NCBI RefSeq assembly: GCF_002159175.1
Contig: NZ_NFGZ01000006.1
Span: 1 to 64,000, forward strand
Direction: 5' to 3'
DNA length: 64,000 nucleotides
Origin: Flavonifractor sp. An92
Lineage (GTDB): Bacteria > Bacillota > Clostridia > Oscillospirales > Oscillospiraceae
The notes beneath the pieces were generated by a model. It saw only the letters and a program-made list of their open reading frames with translations, had not been told where the DNA came from and made no database searches. The translations under genes and the position numbers were made by a program. Below, in pieces: positions 9,780-45,759 of the stretch (positions are counted from its first letter, which is position 1; each line of letters begins with the position of its first letter).

Positions 9780-11666
9780 TCAAGCCGGTTCTTCGGCGAA
9801 ATTGCCGGTGTAGAGGCGGTAGTAGGTGCCCTTCTCCTCCATGAGCTGGTCGTGGGTGCCCCGCTCGATGATGCGGCCCTGGTCCATGACCATGATGCAG
9901 TCGGCGTTGCGCACCGTGGAGAGCCGGTGGGCAATGACGAAGGTGGTGCGCCCGGTCATGAGGGCGTCCATGCCGTCCTGGACCAGCTTCTCGGTGCGGG
10001 TGTCGATGGACGAGGTGGCCTCATCCAGGATGAGCACCGGCGGGTCGGCCACGGCGGCCCGGGCGATGGCAATGAGCTGGCGCTGGCCCTGGGAGAGGTT
10101 GGCGCCGTCGCCGGTGAGCATGGTGTCATATCCGTCGGGCAGGCGGCGGATGAAGCCGTCGGCGTTGGCCAGCCGGGCGGCGGCCATGCACTCCTCGTCG
10201 GTGGCGTCCAGGCGGCCGTAGCGGATGTTCTCCAGAACGGTACCGGTGAAGAGGTGTGTGTCCTGGAGGACGATGCCCAGGCTGCGGCGCAGGTCCGGCT
10301 TCTTGATCTTGTTGATGTTGATGCCGTCGTAGCGGATCTTGCCGTCGGCGATGTCGTAGAAACGGTTGATGAGGTTGGTGATGGTGGTCTTGCCCGCGCC
10401 GGTGGCGCCCACAAAGGCGATCTTCTGGCCGGGCTTTGCCCACAGGCTGATGTCGTGGAGGACCAGCTTCTTCTCGTCATAGCCGAAGTCCACGCTGTCA
10501 AAGACCACGCCGCCCTCCAGGCGGGCATAGGTGATGGTGCCGTCGGCCTTGTGGGGGTGCTTCCAGGCCCAGGTGTTGGTGCGCTCTCCGGCCTCGGTGA
10601 GGGTGCCGTCGGCGTTCTCCTTGGCGTCCACCAGCTCCACATAGCCCTCGTCTTTCTCGGGCTCCTGGTCCATGAGCTCAAAGACACGGGAGGCGCCGGC
10701 GGCGGCGGTGACCACGAAGTTGATCTGCTGGCTCACCTGGGTGATGGGCTGGGTGAAGCTCTTGTTGAGGCCCACGAAGGTGATGACGGTGCCCAGGGTC
10801 ACGCCGGCCAGGTCGTTGATGCCCAGGATAGCGCCCACGATGGCCACCAGGGCGTAGCTCAGCCAGCCGATGTTGGCGTTGATGGGCATGAGGAGGTTGG
10901 CGTAGCGGTTGGCCTTGTCGGCGCTCTCCCGCAGGGCCTCGTTGACCTGGTGGAAGTCGGCCTTGGCGGCCTCCTCGTGACAGAATACCTTGACCACCTT
11001 CTGGCCGTCCAGCATCTCCTCGATAAAGCCGTCCACGATGCCCAGGTTCTTTTGCTGCTGGGCGTAGAAGCGGCCCGAGAGCTTGGAGAAATTGGAGGTC
11101 ACCACCAGCATCACCGCCGCGGTGAGCAGGGAGATGACGGTGAGGGCGGGGTTCAGGAGGATCATGGTCACCAGCGTGGCGGCCATGGTGATGGTGGAGT
11201 TGATGATCTGGGGGATGCTCTGGCTCATCAGCTGCCGGAGGGTGTCCACGTCGTTGGTGTACACCGACATGATGTCGCCGTGGGCGTGGGTGTCGAAGTA
11301 CTTGATGGGCAGGGACTCCATGCGGCGGAACAGGTCGTTGCGCAGGCGGCGCATGGTGCCCTGGCTGATGGTGACCATGATGCGGTTATAGCCGTAGCTG
11401 GCCGCGATGCCCAGGAGCAGCAGGACCACCAGCCGCAGCAGCGCCTGGCCCAGGCCGCTGAAATCGGTGGAACCGGCGTTCATCATGGGCACGATGTAGT
11501 CGTCCACCAGGGTCTGGGGGAAGGTAGCGCCCGCCACCGTGGCGATGGCGGAGATCAGGATACACAGGATGACCAGCACGAAGGCCAGGCGGTAGGAGTG
11601 GAGCATGTAGCGCACCACCCGCTTGAGGACCGCCATGGAGTCACCGCGGGATACATTCGGTTGCAT
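9780..11666 (-). CDS. ABC exporter half-transporter with consensus catalytic site (628 aa)
   Basis: An N-terminal six-helix membrane domain (about residues 20-330) is fused to an ATPase with Walker A VGATGAGKTT, signature LSQGQ and Walker B VLILDEATSSID, whose Glu is the catalytic base. The partner gene just upstream has Asp at that place but a VSGGQ signature. This is the split seen in heterodimeric exporters of the TM287/288, BmrCD and LmrCD type: one complete and one degenerate ATP site. Substrate is unknown; multidrug or lipid-like compounds are usual. An AGAAGGAGGG site precedes the start. It is the last gene of the MarR-led operon. Confidence 0.9.
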   Translation of the reverse strand: MQPNVSRGDSMAVLKRVVRYMLHSYRLAFVLVILCILISAIATVAGATFPQTLVDDYIVPMMNAGSTDFSGLGQALLRLVVLLLLGIAASYGYNRIMVTISQGTMRRLRNDLFRRMESLPIKYFDTHAHGDIMSVYTNDVDTLRQLMSQSIPQIINSTITMAATLVTMILLNPALTVISLLTAAVMLVVTSNFSKLSGRFYAQQQKNLGIVDGFIEEMLDGQKVVKVFCHEEAAKADFHQVNEALRESADKANRYANLLMPINANIGWLSYALVAIVGAILGINDLAGVTLGTVITFVGLNKSFTQPITQVSQQINFVVTAAAGASRVFELMDQEPEKDEGYVELVDAKENADGTLTEAGERTNTWAWKHPHKADGTITYARLEGGVVFDSVDFGYDEKKLVLHDISLWAKPGQKIAFVGATGAGKTTITNLINRFYDIADGKIRYDGININKIKKPDLRRSLGIVLQDTHLFTGTVLENIRYGRLDATDEECMAAARLANADGFIRRLPDGYDTMLTGDGANLSQGQRQLIAIARAAVADPPVLILDEATSSIDTRTEKLVQDGMDALMTGRTTFVIAHRLSTVRNADCIMVMDQGRIIERGTHDQLMEEKGTYYRLYTGNFAEEPA

Positions 11667-11684
11667 ATGGTTTCCCTCCTTCTG

Positions 11685-13427
11685 TTACGACGCGCTCTGG
11701 TCGAAGTCGCCGCCGCCCTTGATCTGGGAGTCGTAGATCTCCCGATAGATGGCGTTGCTCTCCAGCAGGTGCTCGTGGGTGTCAAAGCCGTCGATGCGCC
11801 CGTTGTCCAGCACCAGGATGCGGTCGGCCCCCTCCACGCTGGAGATGCGCTGGGCGATGATGATCTTGGTGGTGCCGGGGATCTTTTGGGCAAAGGCTGC
11901 CCGGATGCGGGCGTCGGTGGCGGTATCCACGGCGCTGGTGGAGTCGTCCAGGATGAGCACCTTGGGCTTCTTCAGCAGAGCCCGGGCGATGCACAGGCGC
12001 TGCTTCTGGCCGCCGGAGACGTTGGCGCCGCCCCGCTCGATGCGGGTGTGGTAGCCGTCGGGGAAGCGATCGATGAACTCGTCGGCACAGGCCGCCTTGC
12101 ACGCCTCCACGCACTCGGCCTCGGTGGCGTCGGGGTTGCCCCAGCGCAGGTTCTCCAGGATGGTGCCGGAGAAGAGGGTGTTCTTCTGGAGCACCACCGA
12201 CACCTGGTTGCGCAGGGCCTCCATGTCGTACTGCCGCACGTCCAGGCCGCCCACCTTCACCGCGCCGGAGTCCACGTCGTAGAGCCGGCAGATCAGGTTC
12301 ACCAGGCTGCTCTTGCCCGAGCCGGTGCCGCCGATGACGCCGATGGTCTCGCCGGACTTGATGTGCAGGTCGATGTCGGTGAGGGCGTTCTTGCCCGAGC
12401 CGTGCTTGTAGGAGAAGCTGACGTGCTCAAAGTCGATGGAGCCGTCGGCCACCTTCTCCACAGGGTCGGCCGGGTCGGCCAGGTCGGGGGTCTCGTTCAG
12501 GACCTCGCTGATCCGGCGGACGCTGGCCATGGACATGGAGATCATGACCACCACCATGGAGAGCATCATGAGGCTCATCATCAGGCTCATCACGTAGCTG
12601 AAGAGGCTGGTCAGCTCACCGGAGGTCATGGTGCCGCCCACGATGAAGTGGGCGCCCATCCAGGACACCATGATGATGCAGAAGTACACCGCCAGCATCA
12701 TGGCGGGGCTGTTGAAGGCCAGCAGGCCCTCGGCCTTGACGAAGAGGCGGTACAGGTTGGAGGAGGCCTTGGAGAACTTCTCGTTCTCATAGTCCTCCCG
12801 CACAAAGGCCTTCACCACCCGGATGGCGGACACGTTCTCCTGGACGCTGGCGTTCAGGTCATCGTACTTGCGGAACACCTCGTTGAAGATCTTCATGGTC
12901 ACCGCCATGATGCACCCCAGCACCGCCACCAGGAACACCACCGCGATGAGGAAGGTGAGGCTCAGCTTGGGGCTGATGATGAGACACATGATGTAGCTGA
13001 ACACCAGCATCAGCGGCGAGCGCACGGCGATGCGGATGATCATCATGAAGGCGTTCTGTACGTTGGTGATGTCGGTGGTCATACGGGTGACCAGACCGGG
13101 CACACTGAATTTGTCGATGTTGGAAAAAGAGAAGGTCTGGATGTTGTTGTAGATGGCCTCCCGCAGGTTGGCCGCCAGACCGGCGGAGGCGCTGGCGGCA
13201 CATTTTCCGGCCAGGGCGCCAAAGACCAGGCTCAGCGCGGCCAGGACCACCATCAGGATGCCGTAACGGTAGACCACGGAGAGATTGGCGGCCTCCAGGC
13301 CCTTGTCGATGATGATGGCGGTGATGAAGGGCAGCAGGATCTCCATCACCACTTCCAGCGCGGCCATGGCCACGCACAGCAGGGTGTCCCGCCGATAGCG
13401 CCCCAGCTGATGCAAAACGGTTTTCAC
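11685..13427 (-). CDS. ABC exporter half-transporter with degenerate Walker B (580 aa)
   Basis: Membrane domain about residues 15-310, then ATPase with Walker A GGTGSGKSS, signature VSGGQ and Walker B VLILDDSTSAVD. Asp replaces the catalytic Glu, so its own ATP site should hydrolyse slowly or not at all, as in the regulatory half of heterodimeric exporters. It overlaps the MarR gene by four bases (ATGA) and precedes the 628-aa half by 18 bases, so the three are one operon. The complex is expected in the cytoplasmic membrane exporting a compound sensed by the MarR protein. Confidence 0.9.
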   Translation of the reverse strand: MKTVLHQLGRYRRDTLLCVAMAALEVVMEILLPFITAIIIDKGLEAANLSVVYRYGILMVVLAALSLVFGALAGKCAASASAGLAANLREAIYNNIQTFSFSNIDKFSVPGLVTRMTTDITNVQNAFMMIIRIAVRSPLMLVFSYIMCLIISPKLSLTFLIAVVFLVAVLGCIMAVTMKIFNEVFRKYDDLNASVQENVSAIRVVKAFVREDYENEKFSKASSNLYRLFVKAEGLLAFNSPAMMLAVYFCIIMVSWMGAHFIVGGTMTSGELTSLFSYVMSLMMSLMMLSMVVVMISMSMASVRRISEVLNETPDLADPADPVEKVADGSIDFEHVSFSYKHGSGKNALTDIDLHIKSGETIGVIGGTGSGKSSLVNLICRLYDVDSGAVKVGGLDVRQYDMEALRNQVSVVLQKNTLFSGTILENLRWGNPDATEAECVEACKAACADEFIDRFPDGYHTRIERGGANVSGGQKQRLCIARALLKKPKVLILDDSTSAVDTATDARIRAAFAQKIPGTTKIIIAQRISSVEGADRILVLDNGRIDGFDTHEHLLESNAIYREIYDSQIKGGGDFDQSAS

Positions 13428-13888
13428 AGTGTTACCTCCTTATTTGTCATTTCCCCCGTCTGGGACAGGTTGTGCAGCATCTTCTTCTGCATCCGGTCCA
13501 GCTCGGTCAGTTCCTCCGGGGTGAAACGGTCGTACAGTCGGGCCTGCACCGCCTGGATGGAGCGATCCAGCGACTCCTGGACCGCCCGGCCCTTTTCCGT
13601 GGCGAAGAGCAGCTTGCGCCGGTCGTCCCCCGCGCAGCGCTCCACCCGCACGTACCCCTTCTCCCGCAGCCGCTTCACCAGCCCGGAGAGCGAGGCCATG
13701 GAGTAGCCGAATTCCCGGTGGATGGTCGTCAGCGACGCACCTTCCTCCGAGTGGCAGAGGATGTAGAGCAGCATGTGGGCCTGCATGGCGGTCAGCCCCT
13801 TCTGGGCCAGCACTTCATTGGCCCGCAGTTCCAGCTGAATGCTGATCTGCCGGTTGTCCCGGGCCATGGTGTCCCGGTCCGCTTCCAT
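13424..13888 (-). CDS. MarR-family regulator of the ABC exporter operon (154 aa)
   Basis: A winged helix is visible: LLYILCHSEEGASLTTIHRE, FGYSMASLSGLVKRLREKGY and the wing VRVERCAGDDRRKLLFATEKG. The dimerisation helices lie at both ends. It is the first gene of the operon and overlaps the first ABC gene by four bases, so it probably represses both and is released by the exported compound, the usual MarR logic. The intergenic region upstream has two TGTTTGG-containing direct elements near its promoter (CAATTGTTTGG and AACTGTTTGG) that may be its binding site. Confidence 0.88.
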   Translation of the reverse strand: MEADRDTMARDNRQISIQLELRANEVLAQKGLTAMQAHMLLYILCHSEEGASLTTIHREFGYSMASLSGLVKRLREKGYVRVERCAGDDRRKLLFATEKGRAVQESLDRSIQAVQARLYDRFTPEELTELDRMQKKMLHNLSQTGEMTNKEVTL

Positions 13889-14055: not shown

Positions 14056-14940
14056 ATGAATACCACACAGCTGGAGTGCTTTATGGCCGTATCCAATTTT
14101 CTGAACTTTTCCCGGGCGGCGGAACATCTGCGCATCACCCAGCCCGCTGTCAGCCACCAGATCAGCACTCTGGAGGACGAGCTGGGGGTAAAGCTCTTCC
14201 ACCGCACCAGCAAGAGCGTGCGTCTGACGCCGGAGGGCTACCTCTTCACCCAGTACGCCGGGGAGATGCTGAAGCTGGCGGGGCTGTCCAAGGCCCGGCT
14301 GAAGGAGTGTCTGTCCGACCTGCCCGCCCGGCTGGGCATCGGCTGCCGCAACACCATCGAGCTGCGCATGCTGCGTCCGGTGCTGGCCCGGCTGCGGGAG
14401 GAGCGGCCGGAGGTGATGCCCCTGCTGCGGCTCATCCCCTTCGACTCCCTGGAGAACCAGCTCAGCGAGGGGGAGCTCCAGCTCATCTTCTCCTTCCAGG
14501 AGTCCGCGTCCAAAAAGGCCCGTTACCACGAGCTGCTCCGCTGTCCGGCGGTGTGCGTGTGTGCGCCGGACCACCCCCTGGCGGAGGAGCCCTTCCTCAC
14601 GGTGGAGCGGCTGCGCAGCGCCGGGGCCATGGCCGCCTGCCGCCCGCCCATCTGTCCCCCTGCCCTCTTCCCCATCCAGTCGGAGGTGCTGGCCGGCCGG
14701 CCTCCCCACCAGGTCTTTTTCTGCGACGATCTGGAGGCCGCCTTCACCCTGGCCGAGGCGGGCTATGCCCTGGCGGTGGTCCCCGATCTGCCCGGGGCGC
14801 GGCTGCCGGGACTGCGGTACATCCCCCTCCCCGAGTTCGAGCCCCTGTCCTTCGGCGCGGTGTACCTCCCCGGTGAGCGCACCCCCGCCCTGCGCGCCCT
14901 GCTGACCCTGCTGGAAGAGGTGCTGCGCTCTGCCCAATAA
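14056..14940 (+). CDS. LysR-family transcriptional regulator (294 aa)
   Basis: The N-terminal helix-turn-helix (residues 1-60: NTTQLECFMAVSNFLNFSRA, HLRITQPAVSHQISTLEDEL, LFHRTSKSVRLTPEG) is classic LysR. The rest is the periplasmic-binding-like sensor domain (about 88-290). GGGAGGTG precedes the ATG. It is divergent from the MarR/ABC operon and could influence it, but LysR proteins more often regulate a metabolic neighbour; none is obvious. It ends at a terminator shared with the convergent bilirubin-reductase operon. Confidence 0.9.
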   Translation: MNTTQLECFMAVSNFLNFSRAAEHLRITQPAVSHQISTLEDELGVKLFHRTSKSVRLTPEGYLFTQYAGEMLKLAGLSKARLKECLSDLPARLGIGCRNTIELRMLRPVLARLREERPEVMPLLRLIPFDSLENQLSEGELQLIFSFQESASKKARYHELLRCPAVCVCAPDHPLAEEPFLTVERLRSAGAMAACRPPICPPALFPIQSEVLAGRPPHQVFFCDDLEAAFTLAEAGYALAVVPDLPGARLPGLRYIPLPEFEPLSFGAVYLPGERTPALRALLTLLEEVLRSAQ

Positions 14941-14944
14941 ACAA

Positions 14945-14983
14945 AGACCGCGCCCCCGGAGTTTCCGGGGGCGCGGTCTTTTT
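14945..14983. terminator. Bidirectional terminator between LysR gene and bil operon
   Basis: AGACCGCGCCCCCGG / CCGGGGGCGCGGTCT stem with a 5-nt loop, T-run on the + side and a shorter T-rich tract on the minus side. Confidence 0.85.
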
Positions 14984-14988
14984 CGTAT

Positions 14989-15465
14989 TTACAGGGCGGC
15001 GCGGAGGGCGTCCAGGTCGGCCTGGTCGGGGTGGCTCAGGGCCCGGTCGAAGTTCTCCAGCATGGCGGTGCGGCGGGGGCTCTCCTCCATGGCGGCGTAG
15101 CGGTCCCGCACGGCCTGGGGCATCTTGCCCTGGCACATGAAGCGGCCCACCACAGTGCCGCGGCCCTCCAGATTGGCCTCCACACGACCCAGGATCTGGT
15201 CAAAATAGGCGGGCGCGCCGCCAAAGCCCGCGGTGCCGAAGAGGAACACCTGCTGATTAGTCACCTGGTGGAGGAAATTGGCCACGCCCTCGTCACAGGT
15301 GCCCTTGTCGGTCCAGAAGCCCACATAGAGCTTTTCTGCCTTCAACGCCTCAGGCGAGGGCTCGCCCCAGTAGATGCACTCCTCTCCCGGCAGGGTGGAG
15401 AGCAGGGTGTCGGCCAGGAGTTTGGTATTGCCGGTACGGCTGCTGAACACAATGGCGTAAGTCAT
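14989..15465 (-). CDS. bilS: Flavodoxin-like protein BilS, electron donor of the bilirubin-reductase operon (158 aa)
   Basis: The N-terminus AIVFSSRTGNTKLLADTL holds the flavodoxin FMN-phosphate loop (S-x-T-G-N-T), and the FGTAGFGG region fits the second FMN loop. It starts by a four-base ATGA overlap with the reductase gene, third in a MarR-reductase-flavodoxin operon. That order matches the bilQRS operon known from gut clostridia such as Clostridium symbiosum, where the flavodoxin supports BilR in reducing bilirubin to urobilinogen. The function is by synteny plus family; a general flavodoxin role is the alternative. Confidence 0.82.
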   Translation of the reverse strand: MTYAIVFSSRTGNTKLLADTLLSTLPGEECIYWGEPSPEALKAEKLYVGFWTDKGTCDEGVANFLHQVTNQQVFLFGTAGFGGAPAYFDQILGRVEANLEGRGTVVGRFMCQGKMPQAVRDRYAAMEESPRRTAMLENFDRALSHPDQADLDALRAAL

Positions 15466-16574
15466 TGGGAAACCTTCCTTTCATAGATACAGTGGACGCC
15501 CCGGTGGGCCATCATCCCGCCCAGGCACTCTTTGTTGCAGCGGACACAGCGGTGGATCTCCCCCGCCCGTCCGTCAAAAACCTTGTTGGGCCACTCCGGG
15601 TCGGCAATGAGCTGCCGACTCATGGCGGCGCAGTCCATGCGGCCCGCTTTCAGCTGTTCCTCGATGAAATCCGGGTCGGTGAGCCCGCCCACGGCGCAGA
15701 TGGGCTTCTTGGTGAGGGCCCGCACCCGGTCGCAGAAGGGGAGGAAACAGCCCTCCGCGCCGAAAGCGGGGTGCTTGGCCGGGGGGATGGTGTCGGAGAG
15801 GTCCGAGTGGTTGGCCAGGGTAATATGGAAGCTGGTGACCCCCGCCTCCTCCAGGAGGGGAACGAACACCGGCAGCTCCTCCACCAGGACCCCGGCGTTT
15901 CCGTAATGGGGGTCCTCCTGGCGTACCGCCAGCTTGTAGTCGATGGGCAGCTCCGGGAGTTTTCGGCGGATGGCCGCCACCGCCTCCACCGCGAAGCGGG
16001 CCCGGTTCTCGGCGCTGCCGCCGTAGCGGTCGGTGCGGTGGTTAAAGACCGCGGAGCTGAAACTGCCGCACATCCGGTCCCCGTGGACCTGCACCAGGTC
16101 GAAGCCCGCCGCCACGGCCCGCTCGGCCGCCTCGCCGAAGGAGGCCGTGATGGCCTCCACCTTGCGCTCGGAAAGGCCGGTGATATAGGGCCCCACCGCG
16201 TCGTTGAGGCGCTTGCGCAGGTCATCCGGTCCCAGCCGGTGGGTCAGCATACCGGGTACACATTTCAGCATGGCGCTCAGATCCGAGTCGGACTGGTGGA
16301 GCTGGGCGCAGACCTTACAGCCGTGGGCGTGAATGGCCTCGATGAGGCGCTGATAGTGGGCAAAGCCCTTTTGTGTAAAAAGGGACGGACCGAAGCCGTG
16401 CTTCCCCACCGGCACGTCGCCGATGATGATCATGGCGCAGCCACCTGCGGCGATACGCGCCAGGCGCTCCACCTGCTCGTCCTCCGGCACGCCCAGGGTG
16501 GTGGGGGAAAAGATGATGCGGTTTTTTAACGTCAGTCCGCCGTAGTCGACGGGACTGCTGAGGAGTTCGTACAT
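15462..16574 (-). CDS. bilR: Bilirubin reductase BilR, old-yellow-enzyme family (370 aa)
   Basis: A flavin TIM-barrel reductase: LKNRIIFSPTT at the N-terminus, YGGSAENRARF (184-194), and the C-terminal AVGGLTDPDFIE...GRMDCAAMSR FMN-phosphate region. The active-site segment reads VQVHGDRMCGS: H164-G165-D166-R167. Ordinary enoate reductases have HGAH/HGAN-type sequences here; as I recall, the HGDR with D166 and R167 is the signature reported for true bilirubin reductases, at the same numbering. C-terminal cysteines (CVRCNKECLG...C) may bind an Fe-S cluster. This is the short form, without the C-terminal NADH/FAD domain. Expected reaction: reduction of bilirubin to urobilinogen in the gut lumen. 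The gene overlaps both neighbours. Confidence 0.85.
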   Translation of the reverse strand: MYELLSSPVDYGGLTLKNRIIFSPTTLGVPEDEQVERLARIAAGGCAMIIIGDVPVGKHGFGPSLFTQKGFAHYQRLIEAIHAHGCKVCAQLHQSDSDLSAMLKCVPGMLTHRLGPDDLRKRLNDAVGPYITGLSERKVEAITASFGEAAERAVAAGFDLVQVHGDRMCGSFSSAVFNHRTDRYGGSAENRARFAVEAVAAIRRKLPELPIDYKLAVRQEDPHYGNAGVLVEELPVFVPLLEEAGVTSFHITLANHSDLSDTIPPAKHPAFGAEGCFLPFCDRVRALTKKPICAVGGLTDPDFIEEQLKAGRMDCAAMSRQLIADPEWPNKVFDGRAGEIHRCVRCNKECLGGMMAHRGVHCIYERKVSQ

Positions 16575-16981
16575 ACAGGGTGCTCTTCTTTCTGAAGTTT
16601 GGCCAAGAGGTGGAAAAGCTGCTCCCGCTCGTCTTCGGTGAGGGGACCAAGTACCTCCCGGTCCCAGTCGAAAAAGACCTGGTGGCTCACCTGAAACGCC
16701 TCCTGCCCCTTTTCACTCAAATCCAGCCGGTAGGCGCGGCCGGACTTGGTGCGGGTGAGGAACCCCTCCTCCACCAGCCGGGTGACGGTGCGCTGGGAGT
16801 GGCCCCAGTCCAGTCTCAGGTCGGCGGTGAGCTGGGCCTGGGTGCAGCTCGGGTGCTTGCCCACATAGATCAGCGGGAACAGGGACCCAAAGTGGAGCCC
16901 CAGCTCCTGGAGCCGCCGGGTGGTGTAGGCCGTGAAATCCCGGTGAAGGGCGGTGGTACAATAGGCCAGGGTACGGAACAT
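16532..16981 (-). CDS. bilQ: MarR-family regulator BilQ (149 aa)
   Basis: A MarR winged helix is visible (HPSCTQAQLTADLRLDWGHS, QRTVTRLVEEGFLTRTKSGR, YRLDLSEKGQEAF). It is the first gene of the operon and runs 43 bases into the reductase gene, whose start is therefore translationally coupled. Two perfect palindromes overlap its promoter, so it likely represses its own operon and responds to a tetrapyrrole or other ligand. The name follows the bilQRS order of published operons; the ligand is inferred. GAAGGAGGCG precedes the ATG. Confidence 0.82.
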   Translation of the reverse strand: MFRTLAYCTTALHRDFTAYTTRRLQELGLHFGSLFPLIYVGKHPSCTQAQLTADLRLDWGHSQRTVTRLVEEGFLTRTKSGRAYRLDLSEKGQEAFQVSHQVFFDWDREVLGPLTEDEREQLFHLLAKLQKEEHPVCTNSSAVPSTTAD

Positions 16982-17000
16982 GGGAGCGTCGCCTCCTTCT

Positions 17001-17043
17001 CTTGACTAGGTCAAGTATAGCAGATAACTTGACAAAGTCAAGT
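17001..17043 (-). promoter_or_regulatory. bil operon promoter with two MarR-type palindromic operators
   Basis: On the minus strand TTGACT, a 16-base spacer and TATACT form the promoter. Two perfect palindromes overlap it: CTTGAC-TAG-GTCAAG at 17001-17015 over the -10 edge and start site, and ACTTGAC-AAA-GTCAAGT at 17027-17043 over the -35. They share the CTTGAC-N3-GTCAAG core and are centred 27 bp apart. BilQ is the obvious ligand. Confidence 0.75.
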
Positions 17044-17055
17044 AATAGTTTTCAA

Positions 17056-17088
17056 AAACGGAGGGGGCGCGGAATGCGCTCCCCTCCG
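17056..17088 (-). terminator. Terminator of the MATE gene
   Basis: GGAGGGGAGCGCATTCCGCG folds with CGCCCCCTCC on the minus strand and is followed by GTTTTTG. It separates the MATE gene from the bil promoter. Confidence 0.65.
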
Positions 17089-17096
17089 AAGGTCAG

Positions 17097-18446
17097 CTAT
17101 TCGCCGGTGAGCCGGGCCTCGATGCGTCCCCGGCGCAGGGCGTAGTAGAGAAATCCGGCAAAATCCGCCAAAAACCAGCCGATGGGCACCGACCACCAGA
17201 TGCCAACCACCCCGATGGCGGGAATGGCGGACAGGGCGTAGGCCAGCACCACCCGGGTGCCCAGGGAGATCACCGTGAGGACCACGCTCATCCCCGGCAT
17301 AGCCACCGCCCGGTAGAGGCCGTACAGGAGGAACAGGCACCCGATCCCCAGATAGAAAGCCCCCTCGATGCGCAAATAGGTAATGCCGATGGCGATGATC
17401 TCGGTCTCCTCCGCCTCGACAAAGAGGCCCATCAGCGGCCCGGCCAGGAGGCACACCACCGCCGACACCACCACGCAGAAGGCCACCGCGCACACCACCG
17501 CCGAGCGGATGCCCTGCCGAATGCGCTGGGGCTGCCGGGCACCGTAATTCTGGGCGATGAAGGTGGAGAAGGCGTTGCCGAAATCCTGCACCGGCATGTA
17601 GGCGAAGGAGTCGATCTTCACCGCCGCGGCAAAGGCAGCCATCACCGCCGGGCCGAAGGAGTTCACCCGCCCCTGGACCAACAGGATGCCGAAATTCATC
17701 ACCGACTGCTGCACGCAGGTGAGGAGGGAGAACTGGCTGATCTCCGCCAGCCCCCGGCGGGTGAGGCGGAGATGGCGGCGCTGGGGCCGCAGCTGGGGAC
17801 AGCGCCACACGCCGTAGAGCAGCAGCCCCACCCCGGAGAGGTACTGGGCCAGCACCGTGGCCCCCGCCGCGCCCTGGACGCCCCAGGAGAATCCCACCAC
17901 AAAGAGGAGGTCCAGGCCGATGTTGCTCACCGCCGACACCGCCAGAAAGACCAGCGGCGCGGTGGAGTTGCCCACCGAGCGCAGAAGGCAGGCCATGAAA
18001 TTATAGAGGAAGGTGGCCGGGATGCCCCACAGGATCACCCAAAGGTAGGCCCGCATGAGGGCGTAGTTCTCTGCCGGCACCTGCAAGAGGCGCAGGATGG
18101 TATCCAGCCCGGCAAAGGAGGCAGCGGTCAGCACCGCCGTCAGGGCCGCAATGAGGAAAAAGGAGGTACACACGCTCTCCCGCAGGCCATCCAGGTCCCC
18201 CCGGCCCCACCGGATGGAGAACACCGCGCCGCTGCCCATGGCGAGGCCCAGCAGCACCGAGGTGAGAAAGGTCATCAGGGTGTAGGCCGAGCCCACCGCC
18301 CCCAGCGCCGCCGTCCCCAGAAAGCGGCCCACGATGAGGGTATCGGCCACGTTATAGCACTGCTGGAGCAGATCGCCCAGGATCATGGGCAGCGCAAAGC
18401 ACAGCATAGTGCTGGTCACCGGCCCCCGGGTCAGGTCCCGCTGCAT
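17097..18446 (-). CDS. MATE-family efflux transporter (449 aa)
   Basis: Twelve hydrophobic segments in two repeats are visible, with the family features PMILGDLLQQCYNVADTLIV at the N-terminus and the matching QSVMNFGILLVQGRVNSFG in the second half. The start MQRDLTRGPV was chosen because GGGGGAGAGAGG precedes it; an upstream in-frame ATG gives an unlikely leader. MATE proteins export drugs or metabolites with H+ or Na+. It is upstream of and co-directional with the bil operon but ends at its own terminator, so a role in bilin export is only a possibility. A second MATE gene of the same length lies near 59-60 kb. Confidence 0.9.
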   Translation of the reverse strand: MQRDLTRGPVTSTMLCFALPMILGDLLQQCYNVADTLIVGRFLGTAALGAVGSAYTLMTFLTSVLLGLAMGSGAVFSIRWGRGDLDGLRESVCTSFFLIAALTAVLTAASFAGLDTILRLLQVPAENYALMRAYLWVILWGIPATFLYNFMACLLRSVGNSTAPLVFLAVSAVSNIGLDLLFVVGFSWGVQGAAGATVLAQYLSGVGLLLYGVWRCPQLRPQRRHLRLTRRGLAEISQFSLLTCVQQSVMNFGILLVQGRVNSFGPAVMAAFAAAVKIDSFAYMPVQDFGNAFSTFIAQNYGARQPQRIRQGIRSAVVCAVAFCVVVSAVVCLLAGPLMGLFVEAEETEIIAIGITYLRIEGAFYLGIGCLFLLYGLYRAVAMPGMSVVLTVISLGTRVVLAYALSAIPAIGVVGIWWSVPIGWFLADFAGFLYYALRRGRIEARLTGE

Positions 18447-41227: not shown

Positions 41228-41365
41228 CGGCTCTCCCCCGCTCTCTTTCGATATGGTCCGTATTCCAATACGGCTCAGCTCCTAATTTTTCAGTATACCG
41301 GTACCGCTCCGCTTTGTCCAATTCCTTTCTGAAATAGGGCGGTTCTCCTTTATTGAAAAGAGGGA

Positions 41366-41410
41366 CAAAACACACCGCCCCCGAAAGCCGAAGCTCTCGG
41401 GGGCGGTGTG
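41366..41410 (-). terminator. Terminator of the BCCT gene
   Basis: An 18-bp stem CACACCGCCCCCGAGAGC / GCTTTCGGGGGCGGTGTG (one mismatch) on the minus strand, followed by TTTTG. Confidence 0.8.
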
Positions 41411-41433
41411 CCACTAGAATAAAAGAGAAGGAA

Positions 41434-42951
41434 TCAGTTCTTCCGAACAGCGGGGTCCTGGCTCATCACCTTGACGATGGAGACCATGGTGAAGATCAGG
41501 ATGAAGGCGAAGGGGAACGCCGAGACGATGGACATGGTCTGCAGCATGTTCAGGCCGCGTCCCTCGGCGGTGCAGAGCATCAGCACCAGAGCCAGAGCCG
41601 CCTGCAGCACGCCCCAGATGAACTTGCGGCTGTTGGAGGGGTTCAGGTCGCCCTCGGAGCTGAGCATGCCCAGCACGTAAGTGGCGGAGTTGGCGGAGGT
41701 GATGAAGAAGGTGCACAGCAGCACCACCACGATGACGGACAGGATGGTGGTCAGCGGATAGTGCTCCAGCACGGAGAACAGAGCGGTGGAAGTGTTGGAA
41801 GCGATCTCGGCAGCGGCCTCGACGCCGACCTTCTCGCCCACATTGATGCCCATGGTGCCGAAGATGGCGAACCACACGAAGGAGGCGCCGGCAGGCAGGA
41901 GCAGAACGCCAGCCACAAACTCCTTGATGGTGCGGCCCTTGGAGATGCGGGCGATGAACAGGCCGGAGAAGGGAGCCCAGGCGATCCACCAGGCCCAGTA
42001 GAACACGGTCCAGGCGCTGTACCAGCTGGGATTCTCGGAGAAGGCGCCCACGGCCATGGCGCTGGAGGGCAGGCTCTGGACGTAGTTACCGGTGCCCTCC
42101 ACCAGGTTGCAGAGGATGTCCACGGTGGGGCCGATGGCCAGGCAGATCAGCATCAGCAGACCAGCTACCACCACGTTCATGTCACAGACCTTCTTGATGC
42201 CCTTATCCACACCGGCCACAGCGGTCCAGATGTAGATGACGGTGATGACGGCCACGATAACGAACACGGCCACCTTGTTCTCGGGCACGCCAAAGACCTT
42301 GTTCAGGCCGGAGTTGATCTGCATGGCGCCCAGGCCCAGGGAGGTGGCGATGCCGCCGGCGGTGGCAAAGATGGCCAGGATGTCGATCAGCTTGCCCACA
42401 GGGCCATTGACGCCCTTCTCACCCAGCAGCGGGGTGAACACGGAGCTGACCAGGCCGGGCTTGCCCTTGCGGAACTGGAAGTAAGCCATGCCCAGGCCCA
42501 GCACGCAGTAGCCGGCCCAGGGGTGGAGGCCCCAGTGGAGGAAGGCCTTCTGGAAGGCGAAGCTGGCAGCCTCGGCGCTGCCGGGGACGGCGTCGGGAGG
42601 CGCCACCCAGAAGTTCATGGGCTCCGCCACGCCCCAGAACACCAGACCGATGCCCATGCCGGCGGAGAAGAGCATACCGAACCAAGAGACGTTGCTGTAT
42701 TCCGGCCGGGAGTCGTCGGGACCCAGGCGGATGTTCTTGAACTTGCTGAAGAAGCCGATCCAAATGGCAAAGACCACGAAGCTGGTCATGGCCAGCATGT
42801 AGAACCAGGAGAAGTTGCCGCCCAGGAAGCTGAACGCGGCGTTGGCCGCCGCCTCAAAGGTGCTGCCCGAGACCACGGCCCACAACACCAGGGCAGTGGT
42901 GATGATGACGGAAATGATGTAGGTGGTGTTCCTAGAATTTTGCTTGTTCAT
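41434..42951 (-). CDS. BCCT-family betaine/choline/carnitine transporter (505 aa)
   Basis: Twelve hydrophobic segments and BCCT family motifs are present, notably GMGIGLVFWGVAEPMNFWV, WGLHPWAGYCVLGLGMAYFQ and the Trp-rich FYWAWWIAWAPFSGLFIARI (quaternary amine box and conserved WW...P). The family imports glycine betaine and related compounds with Na+ or by antiport. It lies downstream of the reductase genes for such a substrate, with a terminator between but the same orientation. It probably feeds the reductase with betaine, which then yields trimethylamine and acetyl phosphate. Confidence 0.9.
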   Translation of the reverse strand: MNKQNSRNTTYIISVIITTALVLWAVVSGSTFEAAANAAFSFLGGNFSWFYMLAMTSFVVFAIWIGFFSKFKNIRLGPDDSRPEYSNVSWFGMLFSAGMGIGLVFWGVAEPMNFWVAPPDAVPGSAEAASFAFQKAFLHWGLHPWAGYCVLGLGMAYFQFRKGKPGLVSSVFTPLLGEKGVNGPVGKLIDILAIFATAGGIATSLGLGAMQINSGLNKVFGVPENKVAVFVIVAVITVIYIWTAVAGVDKGIKKVCDMNVVVAGLLMLICLAIGPTVDILCNLVEGTGNYVQSLPSSAMAVGAFSENPSWYSAWTVFYWAWWIAWAPFSGLFIARISKGRTIKEFVAGVLLLPAGASFVWFAIFGTMGINVGEKVGVEAAAEIASNTSTALFSVLEHYPLTTILSVIVVVLLCTFFITSANSATYVLGMLSSEGDLNPSNSRKFIWGVLQAALALVLMLCTAEGRGLNMLQTMSIVSAFPFAFILIFTMVSIVKVMSQDPAVRKN

Positions 42952-42986
42952 ACGCTACCCCCTCACAAATTTTAACCATGATTACT

Positions 42987-43024
42987 CAAAAAGCGGCGGC
43001 TGGGAATCCCAGCCGCCGCTTTTG
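42987..43024 (-). terminator. Hairpin between reductase and BCCT genes
   Basis: AAAAGCGGCGGCTGGGA / TCCCAGCCGCCGCTTTT stem with T-run on the minus strand. It should separate or attenuate transcription into the BCCT gene. Confidence 0.8.
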
Positions 43025-43071
43025 ATCCAGTTACGCCGCGCCTCCCAGCCGGGAACAGGGCGCGCCGCCGA

Positions 43072-44388
43072 TCAGTTTTTCACCTTGAACACCGTCTGCT
43101 CGGTGATGTCGGTGGCCAGGGCGTCCAGAGCCACACCCACACGGTAGTAGCGCAGCTTCCACTGCTCTTCCTTGGAGGTGTTGGGATCGCCCAGAGGATA
43201 GGGGATGGAGATGGTGGGGACCATACGGTTGGCGCCCACGGTAGAGGCCACGGGGATCAGGTTGCACATCTGGACAATGGTAAAGCCAGCGCGCTCGAAC
43301 TCTTTCACCATCGTTGCACCGCAACGAGTGCAGGTGCCTCACGTGGAGCCCATGATGATGGCGTCGACCTTGTCCTGCTTGAGGAGCGGGATGATCTCCT
43401 TGGCCATCCGGCGGGCCTCAGCCTCGGTGGTGCCGGTACCCACGGTGGAGTAGAAGTAGGGATGCAGGGAGCCGAACTTGCCCTCCTTCTCATAGGCGCG
43501 CATGGCGTCCAGAGGCACGATGACGTTGGGGTCGGCGTTGGCGGCAGCGGGGTCGAAGCCGGCGTGGATGGTCTTGAACACACCGCTCTCCAGGCGATCC
43601 ATGCCGGAGATGTCGTAGCGTCCCCAGCGGGTGGCGGAGGCGGACTGGATGTGGTCGGGGTTGTCCACGGGGACGATGCCGCCGGTGGTGCACAGGGCGA
43701 TGCGGGCCTTGCTCAGGTCCTTAATGGCGGGGGCGATGGGCACCAGATCCTTGGCGGGGATGACCAGCTCGGTCTGATAGGGCTCACCATTCAGCTTCTT
43801 GATGAGCATCTCCACGCCGCGGCGGGCCGCAGTCTTGCCGTCGGCCAGCCACGCCTGATGGCGCACGCCGCGGGGGAAGAACTTCTCAGCGACCGCGCCG
43901 GTGTGGGGCTGACCGGTCAGGTCCTTGTTGATGTAGTCGGCGATGAGCTGCACGTCGCCCTTCATCTTGGCCGCGGACTTGCCGCCGATGAAGATGGGCA
44001 TCTCCTTGTGGAACATCTCCACGCCGGGGTTCTCCACGTGCATGGAGGTGAGCACCGGCACACCGTACTTCTCGTGGACAGCCTTACAGATGGTGCCGCA
44101 GGCGAAGCCGTAGCGGCCAGCCTGGAAGGCGGGGCCAGCCACGAAGAGGTCGAACTCCTTGTCGGCCAGGAAGCCCAGGATGGTCTCCACCGCCTCGTCG
44201 GTCTTGGAGCCCATGAAGTTATCGCCGCAGACGATGGTGTGGGTCACCTCGCCGCCGTTGGCCTTCACCATGGCGTTGAGGGCCACGGCGGGACCGATGA
44301 GCTCGGCCTTGATGAAGGGGGCCTGGTCCGCCTGATCCTCGCCGCCGATGCCGGCAAAGAACTGGTTGATGTAGTGGATGATTTTCAT
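43072..44388 (-). CDS. grdH: Selenoprotein substrate-specific subunit of betaine/sarcosine/glycine reductase (GrdB/F/H family), 438 aa with UGA-encoded Sec350
   Basis: The frame is interrupted by one TGA (43339-43341) read as selenocysteine: IIMGST-U-GTCTRCG. After it the frame continues with strong family sequence (GFTIVQMCNLIPVASTVG, NRMVPTISIPYPLGD) to the true stop. Sec at residue 350 matches the known GrdB position. This subunit activates the substrate and passes the carboxymethyl group to selenoprotein A. Glycine, sarcosine and betaine versions cannot be separated by eye; the BCCT neighbour favours betaine (GrdH). Its partner GrdI-like gene lies 18 bases upstream in the same operon. Selenoprotein A, GrdC/D and thioredoxin genes are not in this window. 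Confidence 0.88.
43316..43337 (-). promoter_or_regulatory. Candidate bacterial SECIS hairpin after the Sec codon
   Basis: Starting two bases after the UGA, GCACC-U-GCA / UGC-GGUGC forms an 8-bp stem with one bulged U and loop CUCGU that includes GU. Bulged U plus GU in the loop are features of bacterial SECIS elements read by SelB. The distance to UGA is shorter than in E. coli, so this is a candidate only. Confidence 0.5.
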
Positions 44389-44406
44389 GTGCGTTCCCCT
44401 CCTTCG

Positions 44407-45729
44407 TTAAAATTCAAGCATGGTCTTGGGGGACCAGCCGGCGATCTGATCGCCGCAGAACATGGAGTTGTTCTCCATGATGATGGAGCCGTCGGGACGG
44501 ACAGAGGGCCCGAGGATCTCGTCGCCGGCCCATCCGCCGGACAGGCCGTCGCGGGCCAGGGCCTGCAGCTCGCCGATGACGGTGGCGCAGGGGGGCAGCT
44601 CGATGAGCTCGGAGACGTTGCCGGTGGAGACCAGGGCGTTGCACTTCTCGTCCAGGGTCACCAGGGGCTGAGAGCGGCCGTCACGGCCGGTGCACTCGTT
44701 GGAGATGCCGACCACCTTGACGCCCACGTCCTCCAGGGCCACGATGCAGCGGACGTAGTCGGCGTCGGGGTTGCCGTAGCCTTCCTCGGTGACGATGGCG
44801 CCGTCGGCGCCCAGGTTGAGCGCCATGTTGGACACCATAACGGCGGCGCGCTCCTTCTGGTCCAGGGCCACGTTCAGGTTGGACATGATGACGCCGATGA
44901 AGTTGAAGGACTTGCCGTCCTCGGCCATCAGCTCGCGGATGGTGGGGAAGTTCTGGAAGTCGTAAGTGCACCACTTGGAGGAGCAGGGCATGAAGGAGCC
45001 GGAGATGATGGCGCCGTCCAGCACCTCGGTGGGGCTGACGAAGGAAGGCAGGTACTTGTTCATGTCCCAGCCGTACAGCAGGTCGTTGTAGCCCAGCTCT
45101 TCCATCTGGGACTGGGGCTGCATGACCAGCACCACGTTGGGCAGGCCGTTCTTCTCCCGCTGGGTGACGGGGGTGAAGTCGAACTCCTCCACGTCCTCGG
45201 GCTCCAGGTCCTTCACGGCCTGGCCGATGTACTCCGCCAGACGGTGAGCGGCCCAGCGGATGGCGTGGTTCTTCTTCTGCTGCTCGTAGCGCTCGAACTC
45301 CTCATCGGTGTCCATGACCATGCACACGTTGATGAGCTTGGAGAAGAGGGTGTACTTGGCGCCCTCGCCGCCCATGTCGATGAGGCCGTCGCCGAAGGAG
45401 CCCCAGTGCTTGCCCACGGCCAGCACGCTGCAGCCCTTCAGGGCGTGGACACGGCCCTGACCGGCGGGGCAGACCTCACCGGTGACGCCGGGGAACACGC
45501 TGCGGCCGTCAGGACGGACGCGGGGCTCCACGGCCTCCTTCACGGGGCAGATGCGGGTGTCGTCGCCGGGACGGGCGATGACCAGGTCCAGGTCGGTGAT
45601 GTGCTCATCTTCCGCGCGCAGGTAGGCGATGGCCGCCTCCTTGTCGATGGTCAGCAGACCATTGCGGAATGCTGTCTCCGAGCCGAATTGGACGTCGGTG
45701 ACATGGAAATTGCCGATCTCCAGTTTCAT
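44407..45729 (-). CDS. grdI: Pyruvoyl-type precursor subunit of betaine/sarcosine/glycine reductase (GrdE/G/I family), 440 aa
   Basis: The N-terminus MKLEIGNFHVTDVQFGSET, VFPGVTGEVCPAGQGRVHAL and ILGPSVRPDGSIIMENNSM are conserved in this family. The precursor is normally cleaved before a Cys near residue 240-255 to leave a pyruvoyl group that binds the amine; here the candidate area is ISGSFMPCSSKWCTYDF, with Cys at about 249 and 254, and I cannot tell which is used. The start is the ATG with GGAAGGAAG upstream, not the TTG two codons before. First gene of the operon; betaine specificity is inferred from the BCCT transporter. Confidence 0.87.
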   Translation of the reverse strand: MKLEIGNFHVTDVQFGSETAFRNGLLTIDKEAAIAYLRAEDEHITDLDLVIARPGDDTRICPVKEAVEPRVRPDGRSVFPGVTGEVCPAGQGRVHALKGCSVLAVGKHWGSFGDGLIDMGGEGAKYTLFSKLINVCMVMDTDEEFERYEQQKKNHAIRWAAHRLAEYIGQAVKDLEPEDVEEFDFTPVTQREKNGLPNVVLVMQPQSQMEELGYNDLLYGWDMNKYLPSFVSPTEVLDGAIISGSFMPCSSKWCTYDFQNFPTIRELMAEDGKSFNFIGVIMSNLNVALDQKERAAVMVSNMALNLGADGAIVTEEGYGNPDADYVRCIVALEDVGVKVVGISNECTGRDGRSQPLVTLDEKCNALVSTGNVSELIELPPCATVIGELQALARDGLSGGWAGDEILGPSVRPDGSIIMENNSMFCGDQIAGWSPKTMLEF

Positions 45730-45759
45730 AAGCAAACTTCCTTCCTTTCCGGTATGATG

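Follow-up and report, generated by a model that had tools for sequence, protein, structure and literature searches.

In the window, the 64,000-nucleotide stretch of Flavonifractor sp. An92 DNA analysed here, a regulator gene, a reductase gene and a flavodoxin gene follow each other on the minus strand (Table 1). According to the open reading frame coordinates, neighbouring genes share 43 bp (bilQ and bilR) and 4 bp (bilR and bilS). The initial annotation had described three overlapping genes at this place and had read them as bilQRS in the order Q-R-S. The open reading frames agree with the first statement, and the second is borne out by all three proteins, which exceed curated NCBIfam cut-offs. 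The models concerned (NF045592, NF045593 and NF045594) are of the equivalog type, have curated cut-offs and were built for the bil system. BilS passed the NF045594 cut-off and its gene adjoins bilR, and BilQ passed the NF045593 cut-off and is encoded by the first gene of the operon. In Pfam, BilR matched Oxidored_FMN (PF00724) and BilS matched Flavodoxin_3 (160.8 bits), and the MarR score of BilQ (23 bits) was slightly below the cut-off of 24.6. Judged by its sequence, the region 14989-16981 is a genuine bilQRS operon and a new carrier of a known system with which gut bacteria reduce bilirubin and other bile pigments. The bilQRS operons of C. symbiosum and C. difficile (PMC10769871) have the same three genes in the order Q-R-S, with a short BilR containing HGDR, a flavodoxin BilS and a MarR-family BilQ. 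The BilR of C. symbiosum ATCC 14940 was 64% identical to the window BilR.

Table 1. Features of the bilQRS locus, with positions in the window.
Feature	Coordinates	Strand	Evidence or remark
bilQ, MarR-family regulator, 149 aa	16532..16981	-	NCBIfam NF045593, 152.9 bits, cut-off 125
bilR, short-form bilirubin reductase, 370 aa	15462..16574	-	NF045592, 544.2 bits, cut-off 425; PF00724
bilS, flavodoxin, 158 aa	14989..15465	-	NF045594, 214.6 bits, cut-off 155
HGDR, BilR residues 164-167	16074..16085	-	Translation; invariant in 24 aligned BilRs
C343, C346, C350, C362 (C-x2-C-x3-C-x11-C), predicted 4Fe-4S ligands	15489..15548	-	Invariant in 24 aligned BilRs
Ribosome-binding-like AAGGAGG, 5′ of bilQ	16992..16998	-	Direct sequence reading
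Promoter-like TTGACT - 16 nt - TATACT	17014..17041	-	Sole promoter-like site in 14900-17200; mean in shuffles 0.2
Putative operator O1 (minus-strand sequence CTTGACTTTGTCAAG; includes the -35 box)	17028..17042		Exact palindrome, conserved upstream of bilQ
Putative operator O2 (minus-strand sequence CTTGACCTAGTCAAG)	17001..17015		Exact palindrome, conserved upstream of bilQ
Terminator-like hairpin, 18 pairs	14943..14981	listed on both strands	Between bilS and a convergent LysR gene

We compared 83 BilR sequences, namely that of the window, those of 80 loci (the best 80 of 103 confirmed BilR relatives from a scan of a species-genome collection) and those of two loci from the same genus. The HGDR motif, which the initial annotation had placed at residues 164-167, is indeed present in the translation, and it was found in 82 of the 83 sequences. 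Both long BilRs that were found also carry it. Its absence from all 33 other Old Yellow Enzymes with a domain match of at least 300 aa agrees with the earlier expectation that ordinary family members differ there; five partial domain matches were uninformative on HGDR and were dropped before tree construction. In the BilR of Ruminococcus gnavus, mutating D166/R167 is reported to lower activity (Hall et al. 2024, PMC10769871). The sole sequence without the motif (L080, 4001-5056) lies inside the short BilR clade; bilQ, bilS and the operator were absent from the locus DNA examined, and its substrate has perhaps changed.

A quick maximum-likelihood tree was built from 118 rows, comprising the 83 short BilRs, the two long BilRs and the 33 other Old Yellow Enzymes, which were drawn from the same family and order. 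In this tree, which is midpoint-rooted, has SH-aLRT branch support with no bootstrap and carries a warning from the tool that long branches meet between both sides, the short BilRs formed one group with an SH-aLRT of 100, the two long BilRs were its sister, and the 33 other enzymes lay across a branch with an SH-aLRT of 100 from the BilRs. The short group included the window sequence and that of C. symbiosum ATCC 14940 (L062); Hall et al. tested other strains of this species. Grouping with enoate or dienoyl-CoA reductases, which the initial annotation had named as evidence against BilR, was not seen in the tree. A dienoyl-CoA, BaiCD or enoate reductase identity was ruled out by the model scores, the tree and HGDR. 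Against the BaiCD model BilR scored 163.7 bits, with a cut-off of 825, and bilR has nothing that corresponds to the C-terminal half of the BaiCD model.

Old Yellow Enzymes are promiscuous, and a BilR-like short member of the family might serve a steroid, an enoate or a xenobiotic. The An92 genome gave no match at E 1e-5 to the E. coli-type beta-glucuronidase model NF007538, the one family searched, which could be seen as favouring such a role. Since this glucuronidase is missing, An92 may also depend on others to free bilirubin. However, the BilR score is 119 bits above its cut-off, and its clade, HGDR, the bilS and bilQ neighbours and the low BaiCD score all argue against a different substrate class, which we regard as very improbable. 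Bilirubin reduction is the predicted function of An92 BilR.

The AlphaFold model of BilR had a pLDDT of 89.0 and a pTM of 0.90, with the Fe-S tail as its least certain part (pLDDT 77, 70 and 54 in the final three ten-residue blocks). Its best eight structural matches (Z 37.6-39.5) were trimethylamine, histamine and related dehydrogenases, naphthoyl-CoA reductase and dienoyl-CoA reductase, all multi-domain proteins that we take to be the Fe-S branch of the Old Yellow Enzyme superfamily. Single-domain Old Yellow Enzymes came next, with Z of at most 34.0. The best sequence match of BilR among solved structures was 1ps9, which has the same fold and cysteine motif; in the alignment H256 is paired with H252. 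C343, C346, C350 and C362 align with cysteines 334, 337, 341 and 353 of 1ps9, as counted from the alignment. Unlike BilR, 1ps9 is without HGDR, has FAD/NADPH domains and acts on a different substrate. BilR is called an Fe-S flavoenzyme in a review (PMC11574389). From the predicted structure and the conserved cysteines, BilR probably carries a 4Fe-4S cluster at its C-terminus.

The exact cysteine motif was present in 79 of the 83 BilR rows. Three of the remaining four (L040, L056 and L064) are one residue shorter, with the spacing C-x2-C-x2-C-x11-C, and they clustered in the tree. The fourth, from Negativibacillus massiliensis (L026, 4001-5101), has an early in-frame stop immediately 5′ of the fourth Fe-S cysteine codon and was left out of the alignment because of it. 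The gene may have decayed, the stop may be a sequencing error, or the protein may hold a cluster with three cysteines.

The long BilR (NF045599, Ruminococcus gnavus type) resembles the short form in its barrel with HGDR and descends from a common ancestor in the tree. Flavodoxin-like and NADP(H)-binding domains are reported as additions at its C-terminus (PMC10769871), whereas the window bilR stops after the Fe-S motif. Because of this early end the electron donor must be a separate protein, and BilS is the natural candidate since it is translationally coupled to BilR. Electron transfer was already suggested for the flavodoxins by Hall et al. 2024 (PMC10769871). We propose that BilR holds FMN in its barrel and no longer has the FAD/NAD(P)H portion found in its long relatives. 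In place of this portion, BilS would deliver electrons along the path BilS to Fe-S cluster to FMN. Among the 83 loci, some of which stop at a contig edge, 63 had bilQ directly upstream and a bilS match directly downstream of bilR, that of L059 being weak. A bilS match was absent from the locus DNA examined in 13 of the 83, for which contig ends are part of the explanation, and bilS lay upstream of bilR in one (L063). Given these 13 loci and the order in L063, a different protein may serve as donor for some of the short BilRs.

The initial annotation had named the conversion of bilirubin to urobilinogen as the role of the operon. According to a 2026 preprint (PMC13252198), BilR reduces only the methine bridges (C5 and C15), and reduction of the vinyl groups needs a second enzyme, BilV. 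This preprint is not peer reviewed and shares authors with PMC10769871. It describes BilV as having the Old Yellow Enzyme family and the pathway in common with BilR, but as differing from it in its length of ~650 aa and in AHAH at the active site, and it gives the proportion of short-BilR species that also encode BilV as only 0.4%.

The An92 genome assembly comprises 3.49 Mb in 60 contigs and is 99.14% complete. Searching it with PF00724 (E ≤1) recovered bilR and one fragment of 16.4 bits, below the cut-off of 27, so that bilR was the single Old Yellow Enzyme barrel found to exceed the Pfam cut-off in this 99.14%-complete genome. In the search with the BaiCD model, only bilR aligned with the barrel part, and eight other matches covered positions 359-615 only. 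The second of the BaiCD-model matches (E 1e-20) was ruled out as BilV, as it lies outside the barrel. The PF00724 and BaiCD model searches thus yielded no bilV candidate, and the combination of BilR and BilV was not found in the An92 genome. As the sole Old Yellow Enzyme barrel is that of bilR, bilV is very probably absent from the gene content of An92. Without BilV the vinyl groups would stay, and divinyl-urobilinogen is therefore expected.

We consider divinyl-urobilinogen, formed from bilirubin or biliverdin, to be the better-supported prediction for the product. This prediction rests on the preprint PMC13252198 and conflicts with the urobilin reported in PMC10769871. The operon, the short-type BilR and HGDR of the initial annotation were upheld, whereas urobilinogen as end product was not, because vinyl reduction needs BilV according to PMC13252198 and An92 is without a second Old Yellow Enzyme barrel. 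It is unlikely, in our judgement, that BilR of this same operon reduces all four double bonds and yields urobilinogen after all. Hall et al. 2024 (PMC10769871) reported LC-MS/MS detection of urobilin when E. coli carried bilRS of C. symbiosum or C. difficile, and also the conversion of mesobilirubin to urobilinogen by cells with bilRS. On the other hand, R. gnavus BilR in E. coli is reported to give divinyl products only, fully reduced signals are described as absent from C. symbiosum cultures, with vinyl reduction only in the presence of BilV (PMC13252198), and the An92 genome searches found no BilV-like gene.

The natural substrate may be chiefly biliverdin in a bird-type gut rather than bilirubin, a possibility that deserves weight but that we do not favour. 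In avian microbiomes short BilR is reported to predominate, and biliverdin is reported as a further substrate of C. difficile BilRS (PMC13252198); several close loci have poultry-type names (gallinarum, merdavium, pullicola). However, one enzyme is reported to be active on both pigments, and the bilirubin and biliverdin readings are compatible.

Two perfect CTTGACnnnGTCAAG palindromes, O1 and O2, lie 27 bp apart in the bilQ promoter, O2 overlapping the final two bases of the -10 box. No other exact copies of CTTGACnnnGTCAAG occur in the An92 genome. The pattern was derived from the window and then tested in other loci. The counts refer to the 73 loci with bilQ directly upstream of bilR, the window included, and the other ten loci were treated apart. 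At least one site upstream of bilQ was found in 58 loci when an exact match was demanded, in 67 with at most one mismatch and in 71 with at most two; two sites were found in 27, 49 and 58 loci, respectively. Shuffled upstream regions gave means of 0, 0.05 and 0.75 of 73 at the same three thresholds and reversed regions gave 0. The remainder of the loci (594,604 bp) contained one exact copy, five with at most one mismatch and 37 with at most two.

In the 58 two-site loci the spacing was 28 bp in 49, 27 bp in 7 and 29 bp in 2. The join TATACTTGAC (TATA-CTTGAC), in which the first site carries the -35 box, occurred in 55 of the 73 loci. The operator of C. symbiosum bilQRS is degenerate, with a single site within two mismatches, in contrast to the perfect palindromes of the window, and two loci (L050 and L067) had no site within two mismatches. 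Six further family genomes (L166-L171) were left out of the 73, as some are maybe of the same species as counted loci; BilQ together with one or more exact sites was found in five of them, and neither was found in the 4 kb examined for L170. No description of CTTGACnnnGTCAAG as a BilQ operator was found in the literature searched, which is a weak guide to absence for the half-site sequences. Among the papers on bilQ and bilirubin, the titles point to Hall et al. as the only one that deals with the gene.

Ten of the 83 loci were without bilQ directly upstream of bilR. In five of them a BilQ over the curated cut-off is encoded elsewhere in the genome (L006, L011, L028, L041 and L063), and in the other five it is absent from the genome (L024, L069, L078, L079 and L080), the best MarR matches being 44-82 bits. 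The site was present at the bil operon in 5/5 genomes with BilQ elsewhere vs 0/5 without BilQ (Fisher one-sided p = 0.004), in a comparison that is small, has related rows and includes only 161 nt upstream for L024. Under the strict rule of a site at most 300 nt from bilR the counts were 4 vs 0, as the L063 site lies ahead of bilS. At that locus (L063, 3300-5092) the order is bilS-bilR, the palindrome precedes bilS, and bilQ is located in another part of the genome. Upstream of each of the five displaced bilQ genes there was one site or more with at most one mismatch, and none of seven weaker MarR relatives in the same genomes had a site within two mismatches upstream. The site thus follows the presence of BilQ, as a dedicated operator of a self-regulating BilQ would.

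The CTTGACnnnGTCAAG palindromes are therefore probably the BilQ operator, to which the regulator encoded by the cassette itself would bind. One palindrome copy was listed as terminator-like in a loose scan, and the palindromes might instead serve another regulator or form an RNA hairpin. We consider this quite improbable, as there are two copies at a fixed spacing across the promoter, with the TATA-CTTGAC join recurring as counted above, and as site presence tracks BilQ presence even where bilQ is not adjacent. There was no sign of a BilQ regulon beyond bil, as outside the bil locus the site was not above background in An92 or in 28 genomes hand-chosen from the 80 loci. With one mismatch allowed, the An92 genome had 8 sites vs 24 for the reversed control, and the 28 genomes had 42 exact sites vs 34 for the control. 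By hand comparison with the locus ranges, 31 of these 42 sites lay at the bil locus and 11 elsewhere. Elsewhere in the window, at 9780-13888 on the minus strand, a small MarR-like gene is followed by two MsbA-type ABC exporter genes, with no operator copy within two mismatches.

A bilR over the cut-off was found in 3 of 10 genus members and in 8 of 250 sampled family genomes, with An92 included in both counts. Of the seven flanking window genes, five were unmatched at E 1e-20 among the other 82 loci (flanks of at most 4 kb per side), and the two ABC transporter genes were matched only in L048 and L053, at 31-55% identity. The flanking genes are not conserved, and there is thus no wider operon. 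The cassette seems to be passed on together with a promoter and operator of its own; horizontal transfer was already inferred by Hall et al. 2024 (PMC10769871).

We suggest that BilQ, as a MarR-family dimer, sits on O1, over the -35 box, and on O2, which takes in the end of the -10 box and the bases after it. There it would shut off its own promoter, from which bilR and bilS would be co-transcribed with bilQ, until a bile pigment or product releases it. It is highly likely, in our view, that An92 has a self-regulated bilQRS of the short-BilR type, with repression by BilQ, a BilR fed by BilS and divinyl-urobilinogen as product. With slightly less confidence, we think it likely that a pair of CTTGACnnnGTCAAG sites ~28 bp apart, interleaved with the -35 and -10 boxes, is the conserved BilQ operator across short-BilR Bacillota, and that bilQRS is a self-contained, movable and pigment-responsive switch.

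Bacterial bilirubin reduction influences the amount of bilirubin that returns to the blood. Another carrier of bilQRS is ordinary in itself, and it is the absence of BilV that lets the product be predicted. The proposed BilQ operator offers a testable site for the switching on of the pathway and a route to a bile-pigment sensor. If correct, it would provide a first regulatory handle on bilirubin reduction in the gut; in hosts that lack BilV, such as An92, divinyl-urobilinogen production would be under the control of the switch.

A betaine reductase cassette was also present in the window, at 41350-45735 on the minus strand. It consists of a GrdH selenoprotein, a GrdG-like partner, which scores below the cut-off of its model, and a BCCT betaine-type transporter. 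The GrdH gene (43072-44388) contains an in-frame TGA (43341-43339), and a SECIS_4 element comes directly after it (43301-43338). The cassette suggests Stickland-type use of glycine betaine.
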